62,178 nucleotides of DNA from a virus, in IMG/VR virus record IMGVR_UViG_3300032431_000082, positions 1 to 62,178 of that record; one strand, written 5' to 3'. Shown in pieces: positions 2-36,600 of the stretch. Each line of letters begins with the position of its first letter. Within the stretch, counting starts at the first letter, position 1. The notes below the pieces were generated by a model. The model saw only the letters and a program-made list of their open reading frames with translations. It made no database searches and was not told where the DNA came from. The translations under genes were made by a program, and so were the position numbers.

Positions 2-448
2 ATATACTTAGCGGTTAGGGCAGTGCCTGGTATATCCCGGGTAGTACTAACAGAGCATGACCCTATCACGGGGTATTTCACTGTGTACGTAGATAGTAAT
101 GACACCACTCTACTGACAAGGGTGAGGGTGGTAGTGGATGAAGTAAAGGCAGCGGGTATATCATTCTTAGTGAGGCCTATGTTACCTAAACCGGTAAATA
201 TAGAAGTAGTAGTATCTGGTACTTTAGATATAGATAGTGATGTATTGAGGGGTGCCATCATATTATTAATAGAGAGCACCCCACCATCTGCTCCTTTGTA
301 CTTAGATATGATAAGGGGTGCAGCGTTAAAGGTGGCAGGTGTGCAGAGGGTTGTATCCATCACCCCTGATACGGATATACTGCCATCGGGGCAAGGGCAG
401 GTATTAGTGCCTGGTACTATCCTCATTACTACTATGAGTGGAGGATAG
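2..448 (+). CDS. baseplate J-like protein, C-terminal part (5' end outside window)
   Basis: The reading frame is open from base 2, so this is the 3' end of a gene that starts upstream; a GTG at 23 is internal, not the start. The readable part begins IYLAVRAVPGISRVVLTEHD and continues with TGYFTVYVDSND. This is the pattern at the C-terminal end of phage baseplate J-like proteins: a small helix ending in a 'VPGV' turn, then a strand carrying '.VTVYV.D'. The rest is a beta-rich ferredoxin-like half. Proteins of this family form the baseplate wedge around the tail hub. The next gene starts 5 bases after the stop, so the two are co-transcribed. The family call is by motif and context only. Confidence 0.6.
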   Translation: MYLAVRAVPGISRVVLTEHDPITGYFTVYVDSNDTTLLTRVRVVVDEVKAAGISFLVRPMLPKPVNIEVVVSGTLDIDSDVLRGAIILLIESTPPSAPLYLDMIRGAALKVAGVQRVVSITPDTDILPSGQGQVLVPGTILITTMSGG

Positions 449-452
449 GGTT

Positions 453-3400
453 ATGTATACGACACAAGATCTATGCCACGAGGCATTAATAGGATTACTT
501 ACGAGACCAGGGGGTGAGGCACTCACACTATCAATGGATGGTGAAGACCCACTGCGCCCATTAATACACATAGAGTTAACGAATACAGCGGGCCCATTAG
601 AGGGGCGCGTGGTAGGCCTTAAAGGTACGTTAACAACATCCCCGTATGAGCTAGCGTGTACTGATGATTGCTGGGACGGTGCTGGTATATGGACTACTGT
701 GCCCCCTATAGTTATTGATTACCCTGATTACCCATACGATGTAGATTGTGTGGATGAGGAGTGCATGCTCCCTTACAGACCTACTTGTTTAGTAGAGTAC
801 CTATCATTGGAGAATGTATGTGCGGTAGATGAGGCGGTAGATTGTAGTGCATGGGGGCGTGAGTACGTAACCAATTATAGGGTGGAGGTATTAACTGATT
901 GCGGTGCCCCCCCTGTACCTGTAGTAATGACTGATTGCGAGTTAGGTGAGTGTGTAGAACAGTGGGTTGGTACTGATTGGTGTAAGGTATATGACATAAA
1001 GGACACACCTCTCATACCTGTGGATGCAGACTGCTACGACCTAGAGTGTATAGCTACATGCCCCTCACGTGCAGGGAAGGTAGCCATATGTTGGGGCGGG
1101 CCCTTTGAGGATGGTGTAGTAGATGAAGAGTGTTATGTGAAGGGATACTATGTATCAGTGTATGACCCATCAGAGTGTGTAGATGAGTGTGTAGTGTCCC
1201 CATGGGTACCACTACAGTGGAGGGATTGTGAGGGTAATGTTTACCCTATGCAAGGTGGGCCTATTGATACGGTGTGGGTACCGGGTATACATGTAGTAGG
1301 AGATCTGACTTATAAGGTAGAAGTAGGGTGCACTGATAATTGTGTAGACGGTGATAGCAGTGAGTTAATAGTATCTGTACTGAGTACCCCATACGATAGT
1401 CTGTGCGTTGATAGTGACTGTATTAATGAGTATGTCCCAGTTGCCACAGGTAATTGGGTGGATGGTACTTGGGTAGTACAACCTATACATGAAGAACGTA
1501 TACCATATCAACACACGGTATATACCCCAATGGAGTGTGTGGATAGTGAGTGTGTAACTGATGACTGTTATGTAGATGGTATCTATACCTTAGTAGATAT
1601 GACATTAGGGGCGTGTAGTGTGGATATCTTACAGTACTTAATAGATAGTGCACCCACACCTTACTGTAGGGAGATAGATACTTACAGTATATGGGGTGGG
1701 TTTACTTGGCCCTTGTGCGAGGATGATAATAGGTCAGAGGAGATAATAGTATCCCGTACATGTATTGAGTGTGAGGAACAGGTATATGATGGCTTTACGT
1801 ACCGTAGACAGGGAGGGGATATTGAGTACTATGTCCGTGGTATGTCTAATGGGAAGGCAGTGTATGTAGTAGATATAGGGTACTTACACCCGACATGTTA
1901 TGAACCTATGTGGGTAGAGACTTGGGTGCCTATATATGAGGATGGTAGGTTCAGGGGTAAACATACATTACCAGTGGGTGTGATACCGTTCTTGAGGGTC
2001 AGAGAAGTCACTTATAGTAGAGATAAGGTAATACTGCATCACATAGAGTATGGGCGACCTACACTGGGTAGGGTGAGGACTAGTAGTCTCCTATACCATA
2101 ACTCAACTGATAGTGCTGTAGATATTGAAGAGTTGGCAGTTACATTAGTGGGTATAATGCTCGCCCCTTGTAGGGTGAAAGCCCCTTGCCAGACAGTACA
2201 AGGTAATGGGCCCGACCCATACTTAAACCCTTTAGTACTAGACAACTTAATACTATTGGCAGGGTTATTAGATAATGGTACTGTTATCCTTCCATCTGCT
2301 ATGAGCACTACTGATGCTTGTGGGATTAGTACTACCACCACCGCTACATCAGATACGACTGTAGTAACTAATCGCGTTGGTAGTATACCTAAGACGCTCA
2401 CGACTTATGCTACCTATGACTTGATATACAATGATGCCCTGTACACCAGACAACCTGCATACCCATTAGAGGATGGGATATTGGTAAATACCTGTATGGG
2501 TAAGTATTGGGATGATAACTACCCTGTAGATGACCACACCTTAGAAGAGTACGATTGCACGGCAGAGTGTGTAGATAAATGGGATGTTAAAGAGGTACTA
2601 CCTAGTAGGGAGGTATCTAATAGAACTGTCGCATGGGTGCTATTAGCTCTATCCACGTGGAGACATGCTATGGGGCCTATGGCAGTGATAGATGGGGCGA
2701 TAGATAGGGTTAGTAATTATCTGCTACAGGAGGTACATGGTAATGGGTTAGTTGGTAAGGGATGGACACATTCCGATACGTATAGAGATTCTGTACCAAT
2801 ACCCACTATAGAGACATCAACGAATGTAGTAGTGTACATAGCCCTAATGAAGGTATATGATCTCTATAGGTCTACTAGGGTACTATCATCTACTGTGAGG
2901 ATGTATGATGGGATGATGGGCTACCTATGGGATAATAGGTGGGGTGCCTTCACGCATGGCATATCAGACACACCCCATATAAGTCTAGATTCTATATTAC
3001 ATGGTATATGGTTTGGGTATGCCATGGGCAGGGCGGAGATAGTAGAGGGAGGGTTGGGGTTATTACAGACACGTACCAGACCCATATCTTTACTACCATC
3101 ACAGCCTATCTGGGATGCACATAGTATTAGGGGGTGTACTTTAATAGGTAGTCCTAGTAGGGCTATAACCTGTGAGACATTACCTGTATATCATGAGGTA
3201 AATACTACATTAGAGATTATCAAGACATTAACTAGGTGTGGTATTAGGTACACTGACCCATACACGAAGTTGGTAATGGTAGGGGACGTAGAACATAAAG
3301 GTTATCTGAGGATGTTATTAGATGGTATGAGTACCTTAGTAGCTAATAATCAATACACAGTACCATACCTCCCCTTATTAGATGATTACCGCACTCTATG

Positions 3401-4415
3401 GTTAAAGCATATGACAGAGGAGAGGTATGGCATACCTTCATACTGCTATGCTGATTGCTTATACCACTGCCCTGATGCAGCACCTACTACATTATGGGCC
3501 CATGACCTATTCCAAGTACATGCCAATCATGAAGTAGATATGTCTATCTTCCATAAAGCATTCTTACGATCTAAACTACCATTCTCTGTGCCCATTGAGT
3601 ACGATTGGCCATCTCTTGAGGCATTGACAGGTAAGGTGGGGATAGTACTAGATAACTGGTCACATGAGTTAGCGATGACTTACGGTGCCTTATTAAGGGG
3701 TAGGAGGGGGGCAGGTTTATCACAGGCAGTAGCCACTCAATTAGATGATTACTGGCCTGTAGTATCAAGGGAGCCTATGGAAGGTGATGACAGTTTAAGG
3801 GGGCGTTTGAGAGATAGATTATCTAGGGGCATTAACTCTACTAAGAGTGGGTTGATGCGATTACTAGGTACGCTACGCTCACCAGCGTTGCTAGGTAAGG
3901 ATACTTCCATACAAGGGCCACGCATATTGGGGTTACAGACATTACCTGCAGATACTAGATTCCCTAGCTACGCTGCCAAGTACCACGGTGGGGATAACAT
4001 ATACCCTTCATTCACATTAGATACCAATATTATGTTGAGTACTAAACAGGTACTAGATGTAAGGGAGGCTAAGGCATTTGGTGTATTAGATAATTACATA
4101 GGGAGGGCATTCTTACAATGTGCACAAGTACCAGCACCTACATTGAATATGAGTGTAACAGTAGGGGGCACGCCCCGCGTACATGCGGTATACCCGTGCT
4201 GTGATACTCTCGGCCCGTGTACTAGAGTGCGTGTAGATCTATACCTAAATGGGTTATATCCATACCCCTTGTATGTGGGGTTAGGCAATGATGGTATATG
4301 GTTCTTATCTAGGACGCATACTGATAGGACTAAGTGGATGTTCAGACCATGGCAGATGTTTATGGAGATAGTCACACCAGTAGGGTACGTATTACAGGAG
4401 ATAGTAGTCAGATGA
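453..4415 (+). CDS. cysteine-rich tail/baseplate structural protein, 1320 aa
   Basis: The frame is open from a GTG at 438, but ATG 453 is preferred because GGAGGA lies 7 bases upstream. The N-terminal ~550 residues hold more than 30 cysteines in recurring short motifs such as ECVDSEC, DCVDEEC and ECVDEC, spaced among beta-strand-like segments; this looks like a row of small repeated domains that could be disulfide-linked. Around residues 750-950 the sequence becomes helical (WVLLALSTWRHAMG, TSTNVVVYIALMKVYDLY), resembling an alpha/alpha toroid of the kind found in polysaccharide-active enzymes. I cannot identify a catalytic site. The C-terminal ~200 residues are again beta-rich. Position between the J-like gene and the DUF4815 proteins makes it a virion tail or adhesion component. 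The exact role is unknown. Confidence 0.75.
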   Translation: MYTTQDLCHEALIGLLTRPGGEALTLSMDGEDPLRPLIHIELTNTAGPLEGRVVGLKGTLTTSPYELACTDDCWDGAGIWTTVPPIVIDYPDYPYDVDCVDEECMLPYRPTCLVEYLSLENVCAVDEAVDCSAWGREYVTNYRVEVLTDCGAPPVPVVMTDCELGECVEQWVGTDWCKVYDIKDTPLIPVDADCYDLECIATCPSRAGKVAICWGGPFEDGVVDEECYVKGYYVSVYDPSECVDECVVSPWVPLQWRDCEGNVYPMQGGPIDTVWVPGIHVVGDLTYKVEVGCTDNCVDGDSSELIVSVLSTPYDSLCVDSDCINEYVPVATGNWVDGTWVVQPIHEERIPYQHTVYTPMECVDSECVTDDCYVDGIYTLVDMTLGACSVDILQYLIDSAPTPYCREIDTYSIWGGFTWPLCEDDNRSEEIIVSRTCIECEEQVYDGFTYRRQGGDIEYYVRGMSNGKAVYVVDIGYLHPTCYEPMWVETWVPIYEDGRFRGKHTLPVGVIPFLRVREVTYSRDKVILHHIEYGRPTLGRVRTSSLLYHNSTDSAVDIEELAVTLVGIMLAPCRVKAPCQTVQGNGPDPYLNPLVLDNLILLAGLLDNGTVILPSAMSTTDACGISTTTTATSDTTVVTNRVGSIPKTLTTYATYDLIYNDALYTRQPAYPLEDGILVNTCMGKYWDDNYPVDDHTLEEYDCTAECVDKWDVKEVLPSREVSNRTVAWVLLALSTWRHAMGPMAVIDGAIDRVSNYLLQEVHGNGLVGKGWTHSDTYRDSVPIPTIETSTNVVVYIALMKVYDLYRSTRVLSSTVRMYDGMMGYLWDNRWGAFTHGISDTPHISLDSILHGIWFGYAMGRAEIVEGGLGLLQTRTRPISLLPSQPIWDAHSIRGCTLIGSPSRAITCETLPVYHEVNTTLEIIKTLTRCGIRYTDPYTKLVMVGDVEHKGYLRMLLDGMSTLVANNQYTVPYLPLLDDYRTLWLKHMTEERYGIPSYCYADCLYHCPDAAPTTLWAHDLFQVHANHEVDMSIFHKAFLRSKLPFSVPIEYDWPSLEALTGKVGIVLDNWSHELAMTYGALLRGRRGAGLSQAVATQLDDYWPVVSREPMEGDDSLRGRLRDRLSRGINSTKSGLMRLLGTLRSPALLGKDTSIQGPRILGLQTLPADTRFPSYAAKYHGGDNIYPSFTLDTNIMLSTKQVLDVREAKAFGVLDNYIGRAFLQCAQVPAPTLNMSVTVGGTPRVHAVYPCCDTLGPCTRVRVDLYLNGLYPYPLYVGLGNDGIWFLSRTHTDRTKWMFRPWQMFMEIVTPVGYVLQEIVVR
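3871..3894. repeat. dispersed palindromic repeat, family A, in coding sequence
   Basis: CGCTACGCTCACCAGCGTTG followed by CTAG is an imperfect palindrome (ACGCT/AGCGT arms). Near-copies occur at 26952-26976 and 42206-42230. This copy lies inside the 1320-residue structural gene without breaking its frame. Confidence 0.6.
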
Positions 4416-5524
4416 GTAAGAAGGTATTAATAGTGGGAGCCGGCCCCAGAGGTATAGCTGTAGCCATAGAAGCTAAGAGTAGGGGGTATGAGTGTGTGCT
4501 CATAGATAAGTACCCCATGACCTCATGGAATGATACGGCGCCGGGCATGATGATGAGGAGCCCACTATGCTTTGACTTAGTGTACCCCGGGTCTAGTACA
4601 TGGGATGATTACTCGCTCATGAAGTATGTAAATCCTAGTACTACTGAATCACATTGGGGGGAGTGTCAGCAAAGAGGCATGGAGTACCAAGAAGATAGGT
4701 GCTCACGTGATACATTTATATCCTATGCTACTAAATGCTTACATAAGACGCAGTACCCAGTCATCAAAGATAGAGTATTGATGGTAGGTAAAACGTGGGT
4801 GAGAACTAGTAATGAATATATTATTGGGGATGTAGTAGTAGTAGCTACAGGTTTATCCCCTATAACTAATATCCCGCAGTGGGTGGAACCTGTAAGTCAT
4901 AAGTTAGTAACTACTAGGGAGATCATTGATGGTGTACCTCTGGGAACCTATGCTGTAATAGGGTCGGGGCAGAGTGCTGCGGAGTACTCACTACTACTAT
5001 CTACGCAAGGTCATAAGGTGTATTGGTTAGTTAATGATAGGCCAAGGGTATCACAGTACCCGGCCCCTAGCTATATAGACTGGGGGTTAAAGAGTGCACT
5101 ATCAGGGTATTACCGCACTATCCCCAGTGACATGATGAAGGAAGAGTACATGATGCAGATAGGACAGTGGCAACCATCTATCACACCTATGGTATCTACA
5201 TTAATACATCAACAAGGTAATAGTATATCTATACTTGAAGGGCCTGGCAGTAGGGAGGGGTACCAGACGTGGGAGACCCTACATAGAAAGATTGATGGGG
5301 TATTACTGTGTACTGGCAGTAAACCCTCGGCCATTGATTATGGTGAGGAACCATATAGAGTGGCGGGTAAGTTAGTACTAGATAGTTTCATGGCCAGTAA
5401 TGGTGTGTACCACACAGGGTTAGTGGCGGTAGGGTATGATGGTCCTAGACAAGCATCCCTAATTAGTGCAGGGATAACAGCTAAGGAGATATTAGACCAT
5501 GCCGATCTGGATAGCCAATCATAG
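4412..5524 (+). CDS. flavin-dependent monooxygenase-like oxidoreductase (SidA/lysine N-hydroxylase type), 370 aa
   Basis: ATG 4412 overlaps the previous stop codon (ATGA); the frame is open further upstream but this start gives a Rossmann fold directly at the N-terminus. KKVLIVGAGPRGIAVAIEAK (residues 3-22) is the FAD-binding dinucleotide fold with GxGPxG. ATGLSP (145-150) is the second FAD motif, and VIGSGQSAAEY (182-192) is the NADPH-binding fold with GxGxSA. The segment PGMMMRSPLCFDLV (45-58) recalls the substrate-entry region of N-hydroxylating monooxygenases and related Baeyer-Villiger enzymes. It sits in frame-overlap with tail genes on both sides, so it is made together with virion proteins. 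Substrate cannot be read from the sequence; it may modify a small molecule or a virion protein. Confidence 0.8.
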   Translation: MSKKVLIVGAGPRGIAVAIEAKSRGYECVLIDKYPMTSWNDTAPGMMMRSPLCFDLVYPGSSTWDDYSLMKYVNPSTTESHWGECQQRGMEYQEDRCSRDTFISYATKCLHKTQYPVIKDRVLMVGKTWVRTSNEYIIGDVVVVATGLSPITNIPQWVEPVSHKLVTTREIIDGVPLGTYAVIGSGQSAAEYSLLLSTQGHKVYWLVNDRPRVSQYPAPSYIDWGLKSALSGYYRTIPSDMMKEEYMMQIGQWQPSITPMVSTLIHQQGNSISILEGPGSREGYQTWETLHRKIDGVLLCTGSKPSAIDYGEEPYRVAGKLVLDSFMASNGVYHTGLVAVGYDGPRQASLISAGITAKEILDHADLDSQS

Positions 5525-6071
5525 TTTCACTAATACTCACACTGTATCCCGCATACTATCCATGATAGTTGCGGGCCCTTACTACTTCTCTTTATCACGT
5601 ACATTACGGTGGGTGGACGTGCCCCCTACACCATTAGCTACGGATACATTAATACCTACAGAGGTATTGGTATATAAGAGAGCGTACGAAGTATTAGCTG
5701 CATTCAGGAACCCTTGTGGCCCTAGAGAATTACCGACCGGCCCCAGAGGTGAAAGTGAGAGATGGTCATTGGTCCCCCCTGAAGTAGTGTTACTGCAGAA
5801 GGATGGCACATATACCCCTAACATTACTCACCTATACATTTCACTATTAGTAGAAGAGACAGACCATGCCGCCCCATACAGTAATGTGGTCGGATTACAT
5901 TCAGGTATACGCCTCACGCTTGATGCTAATGTAGGGGAGGCAGAGCAGATTATTACGTACCCACCCTCTATGATTAGTTCTAGTGGTACGTTGCATTGGT
6001 TAGCGTATACTAGTCCCATTGAGCGTGTCTTACGCTTAAGTCACGAGATATCATTCCTCCTCACCCCATAA
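5499..6071 (+). CDS. unrecognised tail-module protein, 190 aa
   Basis: ATG 5499 lies 26 bases inside the end of the oxidoreductase gene and has AAGGAGAT 7 bases upstream, a good ribosome binding site. The protein is soluble, with no membrane segment or signal peptide visible. It contains PYYFSLSRTLRWVDVPPTP near the start and is beta-rich afterwards. I do not recognise a family. Its place between baseplate-like genes and the DUF4815 protein suggests a baseplate wedge or adaptor component. The next gene begins 3 bases after its stop, with no clear ribosome binding site of its own. Confidence 0.7.
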   Translation: MPIWIANHSFTNTHTVSRILSMIVAGPYYFSLSRTLRWVDVPPTPLATDTLIPTEVLVYKRAYEVLAAFRNPCGPRELPTGPRGESERWSLVPPEVVLLQKDGTYTPNITHLYISLLVEETDHAAPYSNVVGLHSGIRLTLDANVGEAEQIITYPPSMISSSGTLHWLAYTSPIERVLRLSHEISFLLTP

Positions 6072-6074
6072 ACT

Positions 6075-9000
6075 ATGCCACCTATTAATTCATATAGAGA
6101 TAACCCCCTATACCCAGATAGATATGTAGATGGTTCTAATTGGGTACGTGTCCTCCCTATACCGGGGAGGGCATTACAGACATCTGAGATAACTGAGGTG
6201 CAGTCGATATTCCAGGGGCAGATGAAGATGGCTCTGAGCGCCATGTATAGAGAAGGTAGTGCTATATCTGGGCTGCGGGTAATAGGCACCGGCCCTACTT
6301 ACACTATAACTAATGGTCACTTCTACGTACAGGGTATGACAGTACCTGTAGAGGGTGTACTAGCATTCACACCTAGCATTACTCAGACTGTATATGTAAT
6401 GGTATCTGAGACCATCCTAACGGAAGTGACGACACCTTCACTGAGAGACCCTATTAGAGGCACGGGCTATGGATTAGAAGGGGCGCATAGATTAGTGTGG
6501 AGTGGAGTTATAACTAATATGCCGGGGCCTTCATCGTATCCTATAGCGAGTATTAGTAGTGATGGGCAAGTAGTGCAGAGACCATTGGGGGGGGGTAATG
6601 ATAGGTGCCTCGATATGTTAGCTGCCTATACTAAGGATCGTATGGGTGACTTCCTATTAGAAGGTATGTTGGTAACCTATGGGGGGGTTAGGCAATCAAC
6701 ATCAACACCCTTATCCACTTATAAGAAAGGTGAGGTAGATAGATTATCTAGTGAATTGTTGGAGTACAATGCACTACTTACTACTTCTGGTACAGAGTTA
6801 TCAAAGGTTAGGCTAGAACTAGAAGTAGCTGTGGGTATTGCTACACAGTCACCATCTGCCCCTAATAGATTTATAGTGGATACTAAGAGGAAGAGGGTTC
6901 AGGAGTTGGAGGCTATAATGGGCTCCCTGTCAGCGGAGACTATAACCATAACTGCACAGTTATCTTCTATGTCATCTACATTACCCTTGAGGGAACTATT
7001 GAATATATCTCCAGGGGTTGTGTACATTAGTGGGTACCGTATAGATAAGGCGACACCTACGACAATAGAAGTGCCTAGGAGTAATGCCATAGAGGAAGTA
7101 GAGGCAGCTAAGTTCACATACATTAGCGCCCCCGCATCTAGTGTACGCACCTTACTCCCTTCAGGTTTATATACAGATGGTGGGAGTACATCATTAGTAT
7201 TTACGGGCATACCTTACTTAGCAGGGTACATTACTATCACAGCCACCTACCAGTGGACTACATCTAATAGACCCCTGTATGACTTAGTAGAGGCATTCCA
7301 GAAGGGTGTATGTACTTATACAAGTAATGTTTCATTAGCTCCCTCAACATTAAAGGAGGCATTACTCAGAGTAGTGAGTATATCTATGACAGGGGTTAGT
7401 ACATTATTAATAGCTAGTCAATATAGGGATAGTCTCATAGGTCTAACTATCACATCTAATAGGTATGAGGTGGATGTAGAGAGTGCTTATCTTACATCAC
7501 CAAGTCCTGCCCTTACCTCCTATGAGTTAGGGCGCAAGCCTGTGGCGGATATAGTGCGTGTAGTGGCAGACCTAGAGGCCACTCTATTGCCTATTACTAG
7601 GGGCACTAATAGAGATGAGTTAGGGGATGATACTATATTCATTATCAAGGAAGTAGTGCAGGGTCTAGTACGGTACGTAGAAGGTAGAGACTACACATTA
7701 TATGGTCAGGGCTGGATTGAATGGAAGCCGGGTGTAGGGCCAGTGTTAGGCTCCACCTATTACGTTACCTATATATATACACAGCCTTTGAATAAGGGTA
7801 TAGATTATCGCCTACTAGGGGATAGGGTAGAGTTAATTAATAGCACAAGGCGCCCTGCTCCAGGATATACATTCACAGTTGATTACACATACTCACTACC
7901 ACAGATGGGGAGAGTATTTATAGATAGGGATGGTGTCATAGGGTATAGTCTATCACCGCCCTCTATTGAGCCAGTGCCACCTCAAGCATCTATAGGTACA
8001 TTAACATTGGCTACCTTCACTTTAATTAGGGGCGGTGTAGTAGTACACAATCAGGCAGTGCGTAGACTATCGGTGGCAGATATAAGTGCCCTCCTCAGAG
8101 AGTACCGTAATAGAGCACTGCTAAGTACATTACCCGTGGCTAATGTAAGCGTAGATAGTAATGTATCTATCACCCCTAGTTATATAACTACTCCGACTAG
8201 GTATATGAATGTACCCATTAAGTACATGGGGGGAGGGCACTTGCATAGGGGTCACCACGTGACATTACCATACAGCGCACAGCCTTACCTAGAACAAGGT
8301 AGGGTCACGTCGATTCACACACTGAAACCATATAGTACGCCGCAGATATACCTACACCCGCAGGTCATATCAGCTACCGCTGTCACTGCTACTGGTATAC
8401 AACCTTGCAGTGACATACCGGGGCAGGCACCTTGGACGAACGCAATGATGCCAGCTACACCCACAGTTACCACATTTGTATTAGTAGTGAGTGTGGGGTT
8501 AGATGATGCACAGACTTACGCTATACTATACGCGGGCAAGAATGTATCATATACGGTCAAGGTAGGGTTTAATACTGCATCAGGCATCAGGCCAGTGAAA
8601 GGGAGGGTAGAGTTATATATATCGTTAGTGGGCGCTATCCCAGGATCTTACAGGGTAGAACTGAAACCCATAGGCATTACATCATTATCTGCAGCTACAT
8701 CATTAACTATACTGCACCCCCTATACAGGCAATTGGGTATTGATAGTAGCTCATTACCTAGTGCACTATATACATCATCAGTAGCGGCCCCATTATCGCA
8801 GACAATTATAGTGCCAGAAGATATACACCTTAGTTCTATAGGTTTATATCTGCGGTATATAGACAGTGGTGCTACTGTGTGGGTGACTGTAGATACTATT
8901 GATACAACGCTTACCTTGAGGAAGGTAATAGCTAAAGGCACATTAGTATCACCAACCACTTCTTCTAAAGGGGAGGAGGTTACGAGGGTACAGTTGGAGT

Positions 9001-9785
9001 ACCCTGTATATTTAGAGAGTGGTAGAAGATACCAGATATCCTTACACGTACATGGTGGGGAAGTAGATATATACACAGCCACCCTAGGGAAGAAAGATGT
9101 ACGGGATGGCAGTTACGTAGGGGGGCAATTACTATACTTGGGAGAGGTGTCAATATCAGGGGATGGTGTGAATATTATCCCTTTACCACAAGAAGATTTG
9201 AGCCATACCTTGTACATAGCTAAGTACCTAATGAACCCATTGGTAATAGCTTTAGGTACATATGGTCTGCCCGACCTCCTGACACCATTGACAGCATTCT
9301 GTGTGAATGGTGTGGATGTACTACCACCTGGTACAAGTATATTGTATGAGTACAAATCAGATAGCACATGGAAGCCATTTAATAGGGGGTCTATTAAGTG
9401 TATTAATCCTACGTCCAGTATTATCTTGAGGGCGACGATGTACACATCTAGGGCGACACTGACACCTTCCCTAACATTAGAGGGCGTTACAGTTAGCCTA
9501 TATAGTAATGCAGAGTCAGGCACTCTTAGGGGGGAGAGTGCTGCTACTCAACACACAGGAGGACGTTTATCATTTAAGAAGAGAGGCTCGCAAGGTACTG
9601 CCACACCCTCTACATCAATTACAGAAGCGGTGTGGGTACCTATGACATTAGTGAGTGCTGTACCAGTGGGTGATGACATTAGGTACACGTATAGTTCAAG
9701 CCATAGTACATCATACTCATCGGAGTGGAGTATAGCCTTGTGGGATAGGCCATCTATACGTGAGGTAATGTATGACATATTATGA
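6075..9785 (+). CDS. DUF4815-type tail/baseplate structural protein, 1236 aa
   Basis: The N-terminus reads NWVRVLPIPGRALQTSEI followed by TEVQSIFQGQMK. This is the signature of DUF4815 phage structural proteins ('..PGRALQ..EL.ELQ..', the head of large baseplate/fibre-network proteins). The first ~330 residues include a helical linker (residues ~230-310, SSELLEYNALLTTSGTELSK) typical of a coiled-coil stalk. The remaining ~900 residues are beta-sandwich-like segments rich in Ser, Thr, Tyr and Gly. The start ATG lies 3 bases after the preceding stop and has no clear Shine-Dalgarno, so translation is probably coupled. The downstream gene is a paralogue for the N-terminal domain. Likely role: a large baseplate-attached structural protein that organises side fibres. 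Confidence 0.75.
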   Translation: MPPINSYRDNPLYPDRYVDGSNWVRVLPIPGRALQTSEITEVQSIFQGQMKMALSAMYREGSAISGLRVIGTGPTYTITNGHFYVQGMTVPVEGVLAFTPSITQTVYVMVSETILTEVTTPSLRDPIRGTGYGLEGAHRLVWSGVITNMPGPSSYPIASISSDGQVVQRPLGGGNDRCLDMLAAYTKDRMGDFLLEGMLVTYGGVRQSTSTPLSTYKKGEVDRLSSELLEYNALLTTSGTELSKVRLELEVAVGIATQSPSAPNRFIVDTKRKRVQELEAIMGSLSAETITITAQLSSMSSTLPLRELLNISPGVVYISGYRIDKATPTTIEVPRSNAIEEVEAAKFTYISAPASSVRTLLPSGLYTDGGSTSLVFTGIPYLAGYITITATYQWTTSNRPLYDLVEAFQKGVCTYTSNVSLAPSTLKEALLRVVSISMTGVSTLLIASQYRDSLIGLTITSNRYEVDVESAYLTSPSPALTSYELGRKPVADIVRVVADLEATLLPITRGTNRDELGDDTIFIIKEVVQGLVRYVEGRDYTLYGQGWIEWKPGVGPVLGSTYYVTYIYTQPLNKGIDYRLLGDRVELINSTRRPAPGYTFTVDYTYSLPQMGRVFIDRDGVIGYSLSPPSIEPVPPQASIGTLTLATFTLIRGGVVVHNQAVRRLSVADISALLREYRNRALLSTLPVANVSVDSNVSITPSYITTPTRYMNVPIKYMGGGHLHRGHHVTLPYSAQPYLEQGRVTSIHTLKPYSTPQIYLHPQVISATAVTATGIQPCSDIPGQAPWTNAMMPATPTVTTFVLVVSVGLDDAQTYAILYAGKNVSYTVKVGFNTASGIRPVKGRVELYISLVGAIPGSYRVELKPIGITSLSAATSLTILHPLYRQLGIDSSSLPSALYTSSVAAPLSQTIIVPEDIHLSSIGLYLRYIDSGATVWVTVDTIDTTLTLRKVIAKGTLVSPTTSSKGEEVTRVQLEYPVYLESGRRYQISLHVHGGEVDIYTATLGKKDVRDGSYVGGQLLYLGEVSISGDGVNIIPLPQEDLSHTLYIAKYLMNPLVIALGTYGLPDLLTPLTAFCVNGVDVLPPGTSILYEYKSDSTWKPFNRGSIKCINPTSSIILRATMYTSRATLTPSLTLEGVTVSLYSNAESGTLRGESAATQHTGGRLSFKKRGSQGTATPSTSITEAVWVPMTLVSAVPVGDDIRYTYSSSHSTSYSSEWSIALWDRPSIREVMYDIL

Positions 9786-12147
9786 GGACTTAACTGGCGT
9801 ATCACTAAGATGGCGTGAAGAGTGGGTGAAGGTGCTACCCGTACCTAATAGATATCCACAGGGTATGGAGTTCTTAGAGCTACAACAATCAGTGCTATCA
9901 AGGTTAGTGGTTCACCATACAGCCTATGAGATAGTCTTGGGATTGAAGGCCACCTGCAGTGGTAATGAGTTAATCATATCTGAAGGGATTATATGGTGTG
10001 GGATAGGGGAGGGGTTATACATACAGATACCACGCACCCAGATAAGGTTACCCACTCTAAATGCTAGCGTACAAAGCCATACAGTAGCATTAGGTATACA
10101 ACTAATTAAAGAGGTAGTAGGAGCAGGGTATGATCCTATCCTTGGTGGGGTCCCACCAGCTCTGTGGGAAGCTCCCAGGGATCGTGTGCGTGTATATGCC
10201 AGATACTTGTGGGATGTACGTGATACATTACCAGTACTCACTTTACTCAATGGCAAGATACATTACTACTCAGATAGGGTTAGTGAGTTAAGGGACTCAA
10301 TTATTAGGACATACATTAGGGACTTAGATGGTGACTATATAGCCTATGGTATAAATGTATGTCTGCATGAAGGATGGGTACATGTAGGTAGTGGTAGAGC
10401 GTGGATAGCTGGCATACCTGTAGATGTAGAGGCTCAATCTATACCATATCGCTCGGGGGAGCTACAGCTATGCACTGACGGGGCAGTAGTTATAGAGAGC
10501 TCTCATGAGACATATGCGCCAGAGTACAGTGCGATAGTATCTAACAATGGTACACCGATATTAATTGGTGGTAAATCGTACGGTGTGGTACTACCTAATA
10601 TAGGTCTAAACCCATACCTAATACCATTAAGGTGTGTACCACTAGCGACATTAAGTAATGACGTAGTAAGTGATATAGCGGCTAGACTACCTACTGATGA
10701 TGAGTTACTACTATTACTACATAGAACTCCTACCAGTATATCCAGTGATCAGATAGGGGATGTAAATCACCCTCTATATAAGGTTAGGGTATCAACTGAA
10801 GGGGTTATCTATTTACCACGTACGACTAGTACAGCACAGGTAGAGGGGTATGTATTGCCCAATACTAGGGTGGTACTGGAAGAGAGCAGCGTACGCACTG
10901 ATTGGATTGACAGTGCCCCCACACCCTCTACACCCCCACCACCGCCGCCCTTTGTACATGCTAAGAAGGTAGTCAATGGGTATAAAGTACGTGGGTACAA
11001 TCTATCCCCTTCTAGCATATACACGCCTAATCCAGCCCCTGATAGTGTTACGAGAGGGGCATTAACTGGTACATCTATCACCAGTGATGTACATGGGATG
11101 CTCGAGTATATTAGTAGTACAGTGCCCATAGATCTATCAGGCGTAGTGCCTACTGCCGTCCCCAATGTAGGGATTGGATTAGGACAATCATTTAAGGTAA
11201 GTACGCCGGTGATGGTAGGCACTGTGTCATTGTACTTGAGGGCTGGTTATTATGGTGTTATATCCATATGCCCACTGCAGAACAATCAACCATATGGCGC
11301 GGCCCTAGCATGGGTCGGTGTATCTACTACAAGCACTGGTTGGACAGATGTAGAGATAGGGCCGATACATTTACCTACTGGTACTTATGGTTTGATATCA
11401 CAATCAGTAATAGGGAGTGTCATAGGGAGGAGACATTACCTCCTCCCTACATTAGAAGGCGCACCTGAGACCATTAATAGTATGTACATGATGCTATCTC
11501 AAGCTGGTACATGGGAGTCATTACCCAATATGGACCTTATGTACCGTATACATAGAGCAATCCCTAATAGTACATATGGGAAGAGGGTAGTTACTATTAC
11601 AGGGCTTGAAGCATTTGATGGGTATGAATACACACCCAACTACAACTTACCCCCTAATACGTACATAACATGTACAGGGCGCACGAGTCCCACAGGTGTA
11701 CTTATAGGCAGTACATTCCCCCCTAGAACATCTATTACCTTAGTAGAGGCGTTGTTCGGGACAGCAAGCTTATTCCCTACTATAGGTGAGGGAAGCGTAT
11801 CTATGCACACCACCTCCAAGACTGGCACTTGGGTGTCATTGGAAGCATTGGTAGGTGCATATACTGCTGTAATGGTATTACTAGATGCAGTAGTACCTGA
11901 AGGATCCTCAGTATCAGTTTATGTAAACAGTGGTGCAGGGTGGTTAGAAGTACCCTTATTAGAGATTAGGGGGACGCAGCACACCTATCGCATAGAAGAT
12001 ATGTCCCCTACCACATCTAGTACAGATATTAATGGTGTAGTAAAGGCAGTAGTGAGAGAGAGGATTAGGGTGAGGATAGACTTATCTACCACATCGCCTG
12101 AGATACAACCTAGAGCATGGAACATAGCGCGCACTATTGCATTGTAG
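9772..12147 (+). CDS. second DUF4815-like tail protein, 791 aa
   Basis: ATG 9772 overlaps the previous gene by 14 bases and has GAGGTA upstream. The N-terminus, WVKVLPVPNRYPQGMEFLEL then QQSVLSR, lines up with WVRVLPIPGRALQTSEITEV of the preceding protein, so the two share an N-terminal domain and probably arose by duplication. A proline run (PSTPPPPPP, about residues 385-395) separates this part from a C-terminal beta-rich region that contains jelly-roll-like strands. It is probably another virion protein that docks to the same site on the baseplate. The 3' end overlaps the end of the convergent homing endonuclease gene by 14 bases. Confidence 0.7.
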   Translation: MTYYEDLTGVSLRWREEWVKVLPVPNRYPQGMEFLELQQSVLSRLVVHHTAYEIVLGLKATCSGNELIISEGIIWCGIGEGLYIQIPRTQIRLPTLNASVQSHTVALGIQLIKEVVGAGYDPILGGVPPALWEAPRDRVRVYARYLWDVRDTLPVLTLLNGKIHYYSDRVSELRDSIIRTYIRDLDGDYIAYGINVCLHEGWVHVGSGRAWIAGIPVDVEAQSIPYRSGELQLCTDGAVVIESSHETYAPEYSAIVSNNGTPILIGGKSYGVVLPNIGLNPYLIPLRCVPLATLSNDVVSDIAARLPTDDELLLLLHRTPTSISSDQIGDVNHPLYKVRVSTEGVIYLPRTTSTAQVEGYVLPNTRVVLEESSVRTDWIDSAPTPSTPPPPPPFVHAKKVVNGYKVRGYNLSPSSIYTPNPAPDSVTRGALTGTSITSDVHGMLEYISSTVPIDLSGVVPTAVPNVGIGLGQSFKVSTPVMVGTVSLYLRAGYYGVISICPLQNNQPYGAALAWVGVSTTSTGWTDVEIGPIHLPTGTYGLISQSVIGSVIGRRHYLLPTLEGAPETINSMYMMLSQAGTWESLPNMDLMYRIHRAIPNSTYGKRVVTITGLEAFDGYEYTPNYNLPPNTYITCTGRTSPTGVLIGSTFPPRTSITLVEALFGTASLFPTIGEGSVSMHTTSKTGTWVSLEALVGAYTAVMVLLDAVVPEGSSVSVYVNSGAGWLEVPLLEIRGTQHTYRIEDMSPTTSSTDINGVVKAVVRERIRVRIDLSTTSPEIQPRAWNIARTIAL

Positions 12148-12670
12148 ATATATCTAGTAGTCTCTTGATATCTTGTGCCCTATATATACGTGTGTTGTAT
12201 AGGGTGCGCCTACCTTGCCTCTCTACGGTATACAGGTTATAGGATATATCTAGAGAGGTTAGGGTAGCGCCTAAGAAGGTTACTAGGTCTGTATCTGTGT
12301 GCGTGATAGTGTACCACTCATTCTTACCAGACTTTATATGGGAGCCTCTCATATCCATAACCCCCTTGAGCCACATAACATCATCCATCTGCCCTAGTGG
12401 GTATGGTTCGAGCCCCCCCATACATATACGGGATACTATCTTCTTCAATGCCGCCTTCTTCCCTGAGCACATTAAAGGGGCGTACGAGTATAGTAATACC
12501 AACCCTTCTTCCTGATTGATAATCAGGTAAGGGCACTGTATACGGTATGGGATAGTCTTCTTATCTAATAACTCACCCACGTTCTGCAGGATATGTTCCC
12601 TGCAATTAATACGCACCCTATTGTTTCTAATACTGCCACAACTATCTATGATCCCTGTAACGTACCCCAT
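12134..12670 (-). CDS. LAGLIDADG homing endonuclease, free-standing, 178 aa
   Basis: Two LAGLIDADG-type helices are visible: GYVTGIIDSCGSI (residues 2-14, acidic D9) and MWLKGVMDMRGSHI (99-112, acidic D106), separated by about 95 residues. This is the single-chain two-motif arrangement that cuts DNA at a long asymmetric site. The frame opens at 12727, but ATG 12670 has GGAGGT 7 bases upstream and places motif 1 at the usual distance from the N-terminus. It is the only minus-strand gene within the plus-strand tail block and lies exactly between two tail genes. That fits an intron-less mobile gene that spreads between related phages. The motif centre CGS instead of DGS/EGS is unusual. Confidence 0.7.
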   Translation of the reverse strand: MGYVTGIIDSCGSIRNNRVRINCREHILQNVGELLDKKTIPYRIQCPYLIINQEEGLVLLYSYAPLMCSGKKAALKKIVSRICMGGLEPYPLGQMDDVMWLKGVMDMRGSHIKSGKNEWYTITHTDTDLVTFLGATLTSLDISYNLYTVERQGRRTLYNTRIYRAQDIKRLLDISTMQ

Positions 12671-12765
12671 ACCATCTACCTCCAATAGTGTGAGTCCTAC
12701 TACTACCATCCTCCCCCCATATAGCATTGGGTGGTAAGTATAGATTAGTTATTGGTAGATGGATT

Positions 12766-30697: not shown

Positions 30698-33600
30698 ATG
30701 GGTGGTAGTGGGTGGGATGAGGGGTACATGCAGAGATACCCTACGCAGCAGTATGGGCATGGGGTACGTAATGATATTAGTAATACAGGGATGCGGCCTA
30801 TTAGTAGTAGGGGAGGTAGTAGTAAGTTAGTAAGAGGTGTCATTACCAATATAGCAGATGCGGATACGTTCACCGTAAAGATAGACGGTGATAGGAAGAT
30901 TATAAGGTTAGAGGGTGTAGATGCGCCAGAGTTATCGCACAAGTCCCAGGTATGGGATGCGTTAAACCCATGGAGTAGGTACAGTAATAGTAATGGGTAC
31001 AACCCTCTATCAGCAGTAGGTAAAGCATTCAATCAACCATTTGGGTGGGAAGGTACAGAACGTGTCAAAGAGTTAGTAGGTGATGGTACTGTATCTGTAT
31101 CATTTAAGGAGAAGGATAAGTTTGGTAGGTACGTAGGAGACATCATTACGGGGGAGGGTAAGTCTGTAGCTCAGACCCTTATAAAAGAAGGGTATGCACA
31201 CCCATACCAACCAGGCACTAGGTTCTATAGTAGCGATGTCTTCACGCCTGAACTACGGAAGGAGTGGTTAAAGACGGTAGAGCAAGGTAAGGGATTATAC
31301 AGTGACCCCTCTTACATAATGCCAGTTGAGTATAAGCATCCAACAATAGGTACTATAGTATCTATGCTCATACCACTACAAGAGAGTACTGCATCTAAAA
31401 CTAATAGGGCATTAATAGAGCGTCAGGTAGTAGAAGACAGAGCCAAGGCATTAGGTATACCGCAAGGATTTGCATCACTAGCAAGCAAAGATCAGGGGTA
31501 TTTACTCCCTGCATCTATGGGTGGTTCGTACTTCTATGCCCGTGGTCAATACAATGCCCTAATGAGGCAAGCAGGGCTAACTGAGAACATAATAACTAAT
31601 GATGATGCGTCAGTAGCCACGTCAATGTACCAGGTGGGGTATTTAGCGAAGCATGGGCGTAACGCAAACTCATTACCACAGGACGTGGGCAGTACTGTAG
31701 TGGCGGGTGCATTAGTAGGTACATTAATGGGCGGGCTCAGTGGCCGTGTAGGTGGGGCCCTAATAGGCACATTAGCGGGTGGGTTACTAGGTGCAGGTGT
31801 AGGGTTAACGACATCCTATGTGACACAGTACGATAAGGAGTTAACTGGTGGGGGCTTAGGTGCGGCCATCAATGAGTGGGGCGCTAGTAATGATTGGGGT
31901 AGATTATATAAGGATGAGGTAGGGTTCATACCCTCAATAACGGGATTAATAGGTAGGGTATTAGATAGGACGTACCTATATGCCTCACCTAGTGGTGCAC
32001 TGTGGGGTGATAAGGATAATGGGCAGGTAATAGGTAAGGGAGGCTTAAGTTACCCAGGGGAGAGTAAGGGGTTCTTCGAGACGTTCTTGAGTAAGGGGAC
32101 AGAGATAGCGATAGGTGCAGCATCATCTGTGGCTCTGTATTTAGCGATAGGTGAACCTATTAACATCCTCTTAGGGGAGATGATGAAAGGTGAGGTGGAA
32201 TCCCTAATTAATGTGGGTGCCTCCGCTAATACCTTCAGAGGGGGTATGGTACAGGGTATCTTTGCTAGACAGTTAACTACGGGCATGGGTATAGGGGCAA
32301 CCAATGTAACGGAGTATAGGGAGGAGTTACTGCGTGAGATAGGTAGTACCACTAGGGCAGACTATGAGGGGTTAGAGAGGGCCCGGTCTATGGTGGATTA
32401 CTTATCTGTAGAAAGGAAGGCAGTAGTAGGCTCACAGATAATGGTGCAGCATGACCCACGCACTACTAAAGGTAAGGCACTATTAGAATCTGCCATGGCA
32501 GACCTTCAGAGAATGGAGGGGGCGTATGGTATGAAAGGGTTCTATTCACTAGATAGGATGGGTGCGAGTGTGTACCACATGTCTACCTTGACGAGAGAGA
32601 GGTCTGGTACATTGATGGAGAACACGCTCAAGCCATTTATCTTAGAGCACATAGACCCATACACTGAGGGGTCGGAAGGGGCTAGAGAATTGCGTAAGGG
32701 GTTGAGTAATGTAGTCAATGAGATGAAGAGACCAGCCTTCCTTGATGTAGAGCTCAATGATAGTTCTAGTAGAGCACTGGCATTCATTAGGGATGTAGAA
32801 GAGAGGAGTCAGGTACTACTACAAGCTAATCCCCGTATTAGTAATGCGTGGCAGCAAGCGAGGGCGGATGTAGTACTGACGGGTAAGTATGCGAAGGTAG
32901 ATGATGATATAGCCAATGTCACATTCAGGTTAAAGAATGCTGGCAAGGATAGGGCATCACGTGTAGCGTCTGTAATACAGGAGGTATTGGACCTTGTACC
33001 ATTACCTATAACGCAATTCAGGGCAGTGAGTAAGCACTTCGGTGGTGGTGTGGAGAGTTCTAAAGACATCAAGGTACTGGGTGATATATTCTCCTTCGAT
33101 GAGGTAACTAATTCAATAGGGCGCGCACTGCAAGGTACAGGTGGGTTAAGTGAGTACTTAGCAGAGTACAAGGCCTTGAGTAATACCCTCGGCCCTGATC
33201 TGGGTGTATTGAATGCAATAACAGAAGGCCCAGGTAGGATACTCCAGCACATTAAAGAGAGGCGTGAGGTAGTGAAGTCTTTAGAGGCATCCTCAGTAGC
33301 TATATCGAAGATGGAGAGGTCACTGTTTGCTAGCGGTAATATAAGGTGGGGGCATGAGATACCTGCGGATATGCTGCAGAGGGTAGAGGATGAGGTAGTA
33401 CAGGGTATGAAGGCCATGAACCCTGCATTGGATATAGCGAGTACTAAGGTGCAGGCAGAGATATATAGAGCTACGCAGATGAAGTTAGGGCCATTAGTAG
33501 ATCCATTAGTAAGAGAGATAACATTAATAGATGATGTGATGTTAGATGTCCTCAAGATACCAGGGGCGAGGGGTGAGGTAGGTTCTAAGGCGATGTCCAT

Positions 33601-36600
33601 TATAGGGGAGACACTGAGGTCACGGCAGCACGCATCATACATGTCTGGCGTGACTAAGAAGAAGTTAGATAGGGTGCGTGCGGGGTGGGGGAAGGATGCC
33701 ACATCTGGTGTTACTAAAGGTAAGTTAGGTACTGCAGCGATTAGTATCATAGCCCTCAGCCTATTCGCGGAGAAGTTAGTGCGTACGACTGATGGGGTAT
33801 CTATATTCACCCAATTAACTACGGCCCTATCACTGAGGGCTGAGGGTATACAGGTATCTAGTGAATTTAAAGGGGATGCGTTACTGCCAACAGTAGCCGG
33901 TATGCCACTAGATTACCTATTAGCGGCAGGGTTATTCGTGCCAGCACATTACATTGCCTCCGCTAAGCAGGGACAGCGAATACTCACGTACGCCATGAGA
34001 AGGGATACGGTAGCGAAGGCATTGAATATTACAGCCAGTGAGTTATCTGGTGCCATTAGTGGTGCAGTACCACACCCGAAGGTAACATCCTTTAATGGGG
34101 GGATGGTAGGAATAGAACTATTCCCTAATACACCGCGCGTAGTACTGCACATGAGTGGTGTGGAAGATGACTTCATGCGTATGTCGTTCGCAGCCTTAGA
34201 AGGTAATAAGTGGAGGAATACGGCTGCCGCATGGGCACTATCATTAGTAGCGATGACAGTCTTAACAAAGGGCATTGCAGGGGCAATGAATACCTCAAGG
34301 AGTATGACATCATCGGGGACATTAGATAGTACAGTCCTTGGGTCATTAGGGGCAGTAGCTGCCGGCAGTATACTAGGACGCACGATGGGAGGTAAGGGTA
34401 TCGTATTAGGTACGATAGTTGGGGCAGTAGTAGGTGCGGCCATAGGTACCGTGACATCTTCAATGAGAGAAGGTAGAGAGGGTACATTAGACCCTATAGC
34501 ATTGGGATTAGTGGGTGTAGGTGTGGGTAAGGCAGTAGGTGGTAAGGGTAGGAGGGGATTGGCAGGGGCCCTTATAGGAGGTGGGTTGGGATTAGTAGCG
34601 GGTATGTTCACATCATTCCTGAAGGTAGGGAGGGATGATTGGGAGACAGTGAATAAGAAGGAAGGCACTATACTCGCAGACATGACAACGTACGTCAAAA
34701 GGGTGAAGGATAGGGCGAGGGCGGGGGATGCTTCACGCCTTGAGTTAATGGGCGCTTACTATGCGATGGGGTGGATGAAGACCTTACGTGGTAAGGAACA
34801 GGAACCAGGCTATGTAAGAGGAGGTACACAGGTCATAGCGAAGCAGGCCGTACTCCCTAACCTGCAGATGTTCATGGCGGAGAGTATAAAGGGTGCGACC
34901 TATAATGAAGATGGGTCTATGAGGACTATGGGTACATCCTATTACTCTGTAGGTATACAGGGCCCTATTGTAACGGGTATATCTATCCCCATACCATTAC
35001 CATTCAAGGTCACAAGGGATGCTAGGGGGACTGTAGGTTTGGCCCTGAATGAAGACCCTAATGTTGGGACATTTATGGGTGACTTCTCTACGGTACGTAC
35101 AGCAATACTGACGACACTCACTGGATTAGGATTGATAACAGGGACTGCTAACCTAGCACAGGCGGGTATACGGTCTCTGGCAACACGTACCCCATTCATG
35201 AAGAACATGTTAGATGGGGGGTGGGATAAAGGGATACGTGGGGTAGTGACTGCCTTAACGGATACGGCCCTAATACTACCGAGTAGTGCCTTACGCATCA
35301 GTATGTCAATGACTGGTGTAGATTATATGGTTGCTGGTAAGGCATTCATGCCGAAGGTAATGCCTGCGATACAATCCCCATCATCTATAGCGCAGGGGAT
35401 GTTGCAGACACCTACAACAATAGGTACCCGTTCCGCATTAACTGACCCATCATTCTATGGTAGACATATAGGTCGGGCCCTAATATGGGGTGTATTAGGG
35501 GCGGCAGCAGGTAGTGCCCTTGGTGCGGTGATGTCATCTAGTCCTACAGACCCTTACGCATCGCAGGCGGGGTCTACTACCGGTGGTGTAATAGGTGCAG
35601 TAGCAGGGAGTGGCTTGTATATGGCAGCGGCCCTAACTAAGGAGAGCCGCTTAGGGGCTGGCATTATATCCCGTATGGGGAGACCACGCATCCCATTACC
35701 TAATACATTGAAGAAGGTAATAGGTAGGGGGGCGGGTGTGCTAGCGCTTATGGCCACATTGGGGACGCTATTCACATCATCTACATTCGGTATAGCTATA
35801 GGTATGGATAAACCCCCCTCATGGTCTGGGTACCAGGAGAGAGGTAATGCTGCATTCAATGCTGAATCCACACGCAAGTTAGAGGGCGAGTACTTCCCCT
35901 CATGGGTACCTATATTAGGGTACAAGGCACCAACGGATGCGACAGGTGCCATCCCCAACTTAGAGGCAGGGGGGTGGACATATCAGAGGGCTATGACAGT
36001 GGCGATGTATGCAACTGTAAGTACTGCTGCCATGACGATGTACGGTGGCATGGGGAAGAGTGCCGGGGATACAGTAGATGAGTACATGAGATTAGTACGT
36101 AGGAAGAGACCGGCCCCTACAGATAATATAATGGCGCAAGCGAGGGAGAGTATATTGCAGTGGAAGGCATCGCACTTAGAGAAGGATATAGATACAATCT
36201 TGAGGAGGGGTCACGATATAGGTGGGGATGCACTAGCCAGTAACTTACAGGAGTACCATAATGCCTCGAAGGTTCTATACGATAATAAGATACATAAGGC
36301 GGTACAGATAACCCCCAACATAAGCCAGGAAGTTGAGACGGCCCTCGATACAGTAGTCTCGAAAGGGCGCGGTATAGGTGTATCGTTGAAGTTATTACCT
36401 GACCTATTACCTAGGAGAGCATTAAAGGGTGCGACTCTATTAGGGGCAGTAGCATTAGGTGTAGGGTTAGTTACTGCATCTATGGGTAAAGATAGTATGG
36501 ATAGGTTATATGACCACTTAGATGGTGGCAATAGCCTAATGAGATCCATAGGGGATACAGTGCGGTTATTTACGGGCACTGATAGGTCTATTAATGAGGA

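Follow-up and report, generated by a model that had tools for sequence, protein, structure and literature searches.

The gene at 4412-5524 (+) of the window, the 62,178-nucleotide stretch of IMG/VR record IMGVR_UViG_3300032431_000082 analysed here, encodes a predicted FAD/NADPH flavoprotein that lies in a baseplate module and is co-inherited with its neighbours. The explanation that fits best, held tentatively, is a dedicated phage flavoenzyme with the fold of N-hydroxylating monooxygenases (NMOs), fixed in the baseplate module, which would oxidise some member of the wedge/receptor-binding network while the tail is being assembled. Neither the gene nor its annotation is new; the literature searched gave no description of a flavoenzyme that is a hallmark of the baseplate module and whose active site has been remodelled.

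The flavoprotein gene

The reading frame is intact, and its longest form runs from 4334 to 5524. The ATG at 4412, which gives a product of 370 aa, is the start that agrees with relatives and matches that of an orthologue with 68% identity. A complete flavoprotein with both nucleotide-binding motifs had been claimed originally, and the frame does contain the FAD-binding motif GAGPRG at residues 9-14 (4436..4453, +) and the NADPH-binding motif GSGQSAAE at residues 184-191 (4961..4984, +). Matches to Pyr_redox_3 (2.3e-12), Pyr_redox_2 (1.4e-10) and Lys_Orn_oxgnase (2.6e-7), all above their gathering scores, place the predicted product among the FAD/NAD(P) two-domain flavoproteins of Pfam. Within PHROGs it matches phrog_29209, a family of unknown function, at 2.6e-46. 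The window protein also has its FAD motif matched by phrog_6397, listed as ribonucleotide reductase large subunit, and two Lactococcus phage proteins in BFVD named "ribonucleotide reductase alpha subunit" (A0A0D3MT87 and E0YIZ6) match it in Foldseek; these are probably misnamed flavoproteins.

The gene was also said to overlap tail genes on both sides within one operon, which is borne out by the 4 nt (ATGA) shared with the upstream frame (438-4415) and the 26 nt shared with the downstream frame (5499-6071), both flanks being baseplate genes. A scan of the + strand found no internal promoter or terminator above chance that would uncouple the gene, and its GC content (45.1%) is the same as that of its neighbours. 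Comparison with Microcoleus phage My-WqHQDG gives dN ~0.22, dS ~1.7 (near saturation) and dN/dS ~0.13, with similar values for the neighbours, which indicates that all of these genes evolve under purifying selection.

The surrounding baseplate module

The first module gene seen in the window encodes the C-terminal part of a baseplate J-like protein (BW2; 23..448, +; phrog_6, 9.8e-7); it is cut by the window edge, and its product is 71% identical to the My-WqHQDG protein of 352 aa over residues 212-352 of the latter. It is followed by a long baseplate wedge protein of 1325 aa (BW3; 438..4415, +) with a Cys-rich N-terminal extension and a C-terminal part related to SPO1 gp15.1. Downstream of the flavoprotein gene lie the 190-aa connector from baseplate wedge 3 to the tail-fibre network (BW3TFN; 5499..6071, +), whose match to PF25691 (2e-5) is slightly below the cut-off while eight relatives score above it, and a DUF4815 tail-fibre-network/adsorption protein of 1236 aa (6075..9785, +; PF16075, 3.9e-61; PDB 9euf, 6.6e-23). 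A second, partly DUF4815-like tail protein of 791 aa (9772..12147, +) is the orthologue of Ma-LMM01 gp109. Inside this run of tail genes there is also an antisense frame of 197 aa (12134-12727, -) with a weak match to LAGLIDADG_3 (2.7e-4), and My-WqHQDG has a frame of similar length on the same strand and at the same place (L002:22896-23489).

By their matches these tail genes make up the baseplate module of a contractile tail, of the kind known from Herelleviridae: the order BW2 (J), BW3, BW3TFN and DUF4815 is present, with homologous BW3 core, BW3TFN and DUF4815 proteins. The Herelleviridae modules of A511 and SPO1 differ in that they are without the flavoenzyme and that no long cyanophage-type extension precedes their BW3 at the N-terminus. 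Apart from the missing flavoprotein, SPO1 and Staphylococcus phage Romulus show the same order as the window. According to PMC10811340, BW3TFN proteins (A511 gp105, T4 gp8-like) link receptor-binding proteins to BW3 (A511 gp104). The cyanophage BW3 profile matches SPO1 gp15.1 (9.7e-12) and the record L085 (4.7e-14) through the C-terminal part of BW3. A weak likeness of the N-terminal extension to the alpha/alpha toroids of GH76 alpha-1,6-mannanases (3e-4, from the family alignment) suggests that the extension may be a glycan-handling addition to the wedge protein.

Predicted fold and chemistry

An AlphaFold2 model built with 17 family members reached a pLDDT of 82 and a pTM of 0.84, compared to a pLDDT of 31 with eight sequences. 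The best structural matches of the model are ornithine N-hydroxylases, namely KtzI (Z 27.9, rmsd 3.3 over 334 residues), PvdA (27.5) and SidA (~27), followed by the weaker FMO (24.9), YpdA (23.5) and thioredoxin reductases (~20); the VIA-align and Foldseek lists leave room for further families, and the absence of a family from them was not counted as evidence. Alignment of the family with six cellular NMOs in hhalign supports the same kinship (99.4%, 7.9e-22, 338 columns). PF13434 is matched by all 17 members, at best with 2.7e-19, and the window protein scores 30.5 bits against a cut-off of 21.3.

The likeness to SidA, PvdA, KtzI and DfoA (PF13434) thus extends over the whole length of the fold (Z ~28) and includes the FAD GxGP and NADPH GxGQSAAE motifs. 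In contrast, the phage enzymes are shorter (320-383 aa versus ~430), their genes lie in a baseplate operon rather than in a siderophore cluster, and the substrate motifs have been replaced. All members carry GxGPRG/S, with G for the N of the NMO motif GxGPxN, together with GxGQxxAE. The NMO substrate signature Q(V/I)SxxKDL, of which the K is not conserved in diamine enzymes, is absent; its place is taken by the family signature RSPxxFDL (residues 49-56; 4556..4579, +), in which the Gln has become an invariant Arg49 and the Lys position Phe54. The second NMO motif, DDxPFxNExFxP, is missing and has no alignable counterpart in the family. Neither was the FMO/BVMO fingerprint FxGxxxHxxx(Y/F/W) seen at residues 147-182 of the family alignments, and the window flavoprotein has no CxxC, the redox motif of thioredoxin reductase-like proteins.

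The retained fold and the replaced substrate motifs together argue for an NMO-fold flavoprotein with a rebuilt substrate site. The original prediction of a monooxygenase therefore stands as to fold class, which is NMO-like by both profile and structure. It goes too far in that monooxygenase activity is read from the fold, and the N-hydroxylase substrate signature has been lost. From the fold and the conserved cofactor motifs we infer that the protein is catalytic and that it oxygenates something rather than carrying out a plain reduction. Since the substrate signature is replaced, "lysine/ornithine N-monooxygenase" is an unsafe name and the chemistry of SidA and PvdA cannot be assumed.

Distribution and fixed position

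Among 50,697 phage records, tblastn found the flavoprotein in ten and in no further record, the ten being My-WqHQDG and Ma-LMM01-like Microcystis phages; DUF4815 relatives occur in 592 records. The orthologue in Ma-LMM01 (gp106, 337 aa) and MaMV-DC (ORF106), both in phrog_29209, is 35% identical over 97% of the length and stands before gp107-gp109, and in the Microcystis phages BW3 and the enzyme are separated by further genes, of which one is fibre-like. Viral and genome contigs scanned with a single sequence or a narrow alignment gave no matches or Ma-LMM01-like phages only. The family was widened by searching for the C-terminal signature YDGPRQxSxISAG as a DNA pattern, by profile scans and by a genome scan, which added twelve uncultured lineages; these include a contig of the Elainella saxicola assembly and contigs of 136, 172, 191 and 252 kb. 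Of ten contigs, three contain NblA, a phycobilisome degradation protein, above the cut-off and another has a match under it, as cyanophages would show.

In all 15 lineages bearing the flavoprotein, the BW3TFN gene and then DUF4815 lie directly downstream, where BW3TFN of the Ma-LMM01 kind and of L028 scores below the family cut-off and was assigned from its position, its length or a match under the threshold. The reading frames of flavoprotein and BW3TFN overlap in 12 of these. As the gene upstream is BW3 in some lineages and of fibre type in others, BW3TFN is the fixed partner of the flavoprotein.

No gene of the baseplate cluster is better conserved than that of the flavoprotein, whose mean identity over 12 lineages is 39%, versus 26% for BW3TFN, 32% for DUF4815 and 33% for baseplate J, and its distances track those of the cluster neighbours (Mantel r 0.78-0.89). 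In a tree, a branch with full support separates the phage flavoproteins from the cellular NMOs. A recent isolated insertion of the gene can be ruled out by the orthologues in place and by co-inheritance. The two findings that were to overturn the original prediction, loss of FAD-binding residues in relatives and an isolated, unconserved insertion, were thus both contradicted, and the homologues it called for in other phages do occupy the same place.

Forty-nine residues are invariant across 15 lineages, including GxGPR (G9, G11, P12 and R13 in the window protein), D32 and GxGQxxAE (G184, G186, Q187, A190 and E191). The family has invariant signatures of its own as well: RSPxxFDL, YPxP (also written YPxPxY), WxPxIT and YDGPRQxS, of which YDGPRQ is found at residues 342-347 (5435..5452, +). 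The invariance of both nucleotide motifs and of D32 counts against the quite improbable case of a pseudoenzyme, in which the fold would be kept merely as a scaffold or as a translation-coupled assembly chaperone. Such a loss of activity would accord with the replaced substrate motifs and with the altered ATG motif preceding the NADPH domain in L064, L028, L034 and L043.

Alternatively, the protein could be an auxiliary metabolic enzyme that acts on a small molecule in the host, by N- or S-oxygenation or by detoxification, its location in the tail cluster being historical. The closest enzymes of known function work on small amines, and Ma-LMM01 gp106 and its relatives carry the annotation "putative lysine/ornithine N-monooxygenase". 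This role is nevertheless rather unlikely, given the lost NMO substrate motifs and a coupling to BW3TFN that is invariant across lineages at 32-39% identity. Moreover, genes for DNA and nucleotide metabolism lie outside the tail cluster in the window, and the structural genes of Ma-LMM01 lie in a region separate from its nucleotide metabolism genes (PMC4103541). A search of 386 cyanobacterial genomes at 1e-15 found the family solely in the Elainella contig, along with a single distant match in another genome; 385 of the genomes are without the family, distant NMO-like proteins aside. A host-derived metabolic gene common to current cyanobacteria can be ruled out on these grounds, the Elainella contig being phage-like. 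Plasmid-borne relatives share 22-28% identity only.

The Elainella saxicola contig (LUGL01000101.1; L045/L044) holds a flavoenzyme-bearing phage tail cluster, from a provirus or a co-assembled phage, and its DUF4815 gene reads as two frames (858 and 614 aa). A control genome, that of the model cyanobacterium Synechococcus elongatus, has BW3TFN and DUF4815 genes without phrog_29209, in the same kind of tail element.

Association with the extended wedge protein

Scanning relatives by tail gene instead of by enzyme added two carriers of the flavoenzyme (L081 and L087) and four non-carriers (L076, L079, L085 and L088). The long BW3 profile was matched in all 15 carriers and had no match in the records of three non-carriers, L076, L079 and L088 (Fisher p 0.001, with related and fragmentary records and few negatives). 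On contig L079 (3967-9915), BW3TFN directly follows baseplate J, with neither flavoenzyme nor long BW3 between them, and the rest of the contig gave no match to the long BW3. The co-occurrence is suggestive of a flavoenzyme that tracks the long, N-terminally extended BW3, which makes BW3 the first candidate client of the enzyme.

The BW3 of the window (438-4415, +) has 49 Cys, mostly in its first third. BW3 is Cys-rich (18-50 Cys) in the window, My-WqHQDG, LMM01, L064, L046, L049, L081 and L087, and is not so in the carriers L024, L045, L047 and L048 (8-9 Cys) and L060 (6). A role of the enzyme as redox partner of a Cys-rich BW3 is thus not general, as five carriers have a Cys-poor BW3.

These counts also bear on an unlikely reading in which the flavoprotein stays in the virion as a baseplate subunit, with FAD/NADP as structural ligand or redox sensor and turnover minor; in that position it might control contraction or the deployment of fibres. 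The fixed position of its gene between wedge and connector genes, its co-inheritance with both and the Cys-richness of BW3 in several lineages would all suit such residence. A precedent for redox control of a tail is phage Milano, whose contractile tail is locked by disulfides and needs reduction before contraction, so that the state of the baseplate is redox-dependent; the parts of PMC10811340 consulted describe a Cys network in sheath and wedges, and no flavoenzyme was seen in them. Against virion residence stand the Cys-poor BW3 proteins of the five carriers and the lack of CxxC in the window flavoprotein, and a structural role alone would leave the invariance of both nucleotide motifs unexplained. 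A virion proteome with the flavoenzyme was not found in the literature searched, which counts against a baseplate enzyme in general as well. The enzyme goes unmentioned in the MaMV-DH01 paper, where virion mass spectrometry is said to be still needed, and no functional study was found in the literature searched, the original Ma-LMM01 genome paper (2008) lying outside it.

Other genes in the window

Downstream of the terminase gene, a frame of 3209 aa (30698-40327, +) has an N-terminal staphylococcal-nuclease domain (PF00565, 3.9e-12) and also matches the phrog_452 endonuclease and phrog_29513; its product would be a giant nuclease protein, possibly borne on the virion. A ThyX-like protein of 544 aa (51629-53263, -), about twice the usual ThyX length, matches phrog_36506 in three stretches.

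Proposed role of the flavoenzyme

In the tentatively preferred explanation of a baseplate-coupled flavoenzyme, an ancestor with the class B NMO fold of SidA, PvdA and KtzI would have given rise to a dedicated phage enzyme, which became fixed in the baseplate module of one lineage of large cyanobacterial myoviruses. It would be translated together with the wedge protein BW3 and the connector BW3TFN and, judging by its motifs, would bind FAD and NADPH. A late-infected cyanobacterial cell provides NADPH and O2, and the enzyme most likely uses this O2. Its target would be a component of the wedge/receptor-binding network, with the extended BW3 as favoured client, oxidised during assembly. Outside the cell the baseplate has no NADPH, and a virion-borne enzyme could therefore not turn over there. 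Accordingly, the enzyme is judged more likely to act within the cell, during assembly, than in the free virion; residence in the virion in turn ranks above a metabolic role. Points against a baseplate enzyme are that L076 and L079 manage without the gene and that the substrate-site signatures of both NMOs and FMOs are absent. On balance, the predicted protein is probably active and a baseplate function is likely.

Redox enzymes are unexpected as fixed members of a phage tail module, and this one exceeds the surrounding tail proteins in conservation, no longer has the substrate motifs found in its relatives and goes together with one particular wedge protein. Its database name of "lysine/ornithine N-monooxygenase" is not to be taken as the mark of a siderophore or amino-acid auxiliary gene. 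Because an orthologue is present in Ma-LMM01, a phage available in culture, the question of redox chemistry in the adhesion machinery of a phage is directly testable. The presence of the flavoenzyme at the same place in at least 15 lineages suggests that redox chemistry takes part in building or operating the host-gripping end of the tail. Perhaps, although this is doubtful, there is a class of large cyanophages whose baseplate hallmark is a flavin oxygenase, acting on the wedge/receptor-binding network or residing within it. If true, adhesion or contraction in these phages would hinge on redox chemistry fed by the photosynthetic NADPH and O2 of the host.
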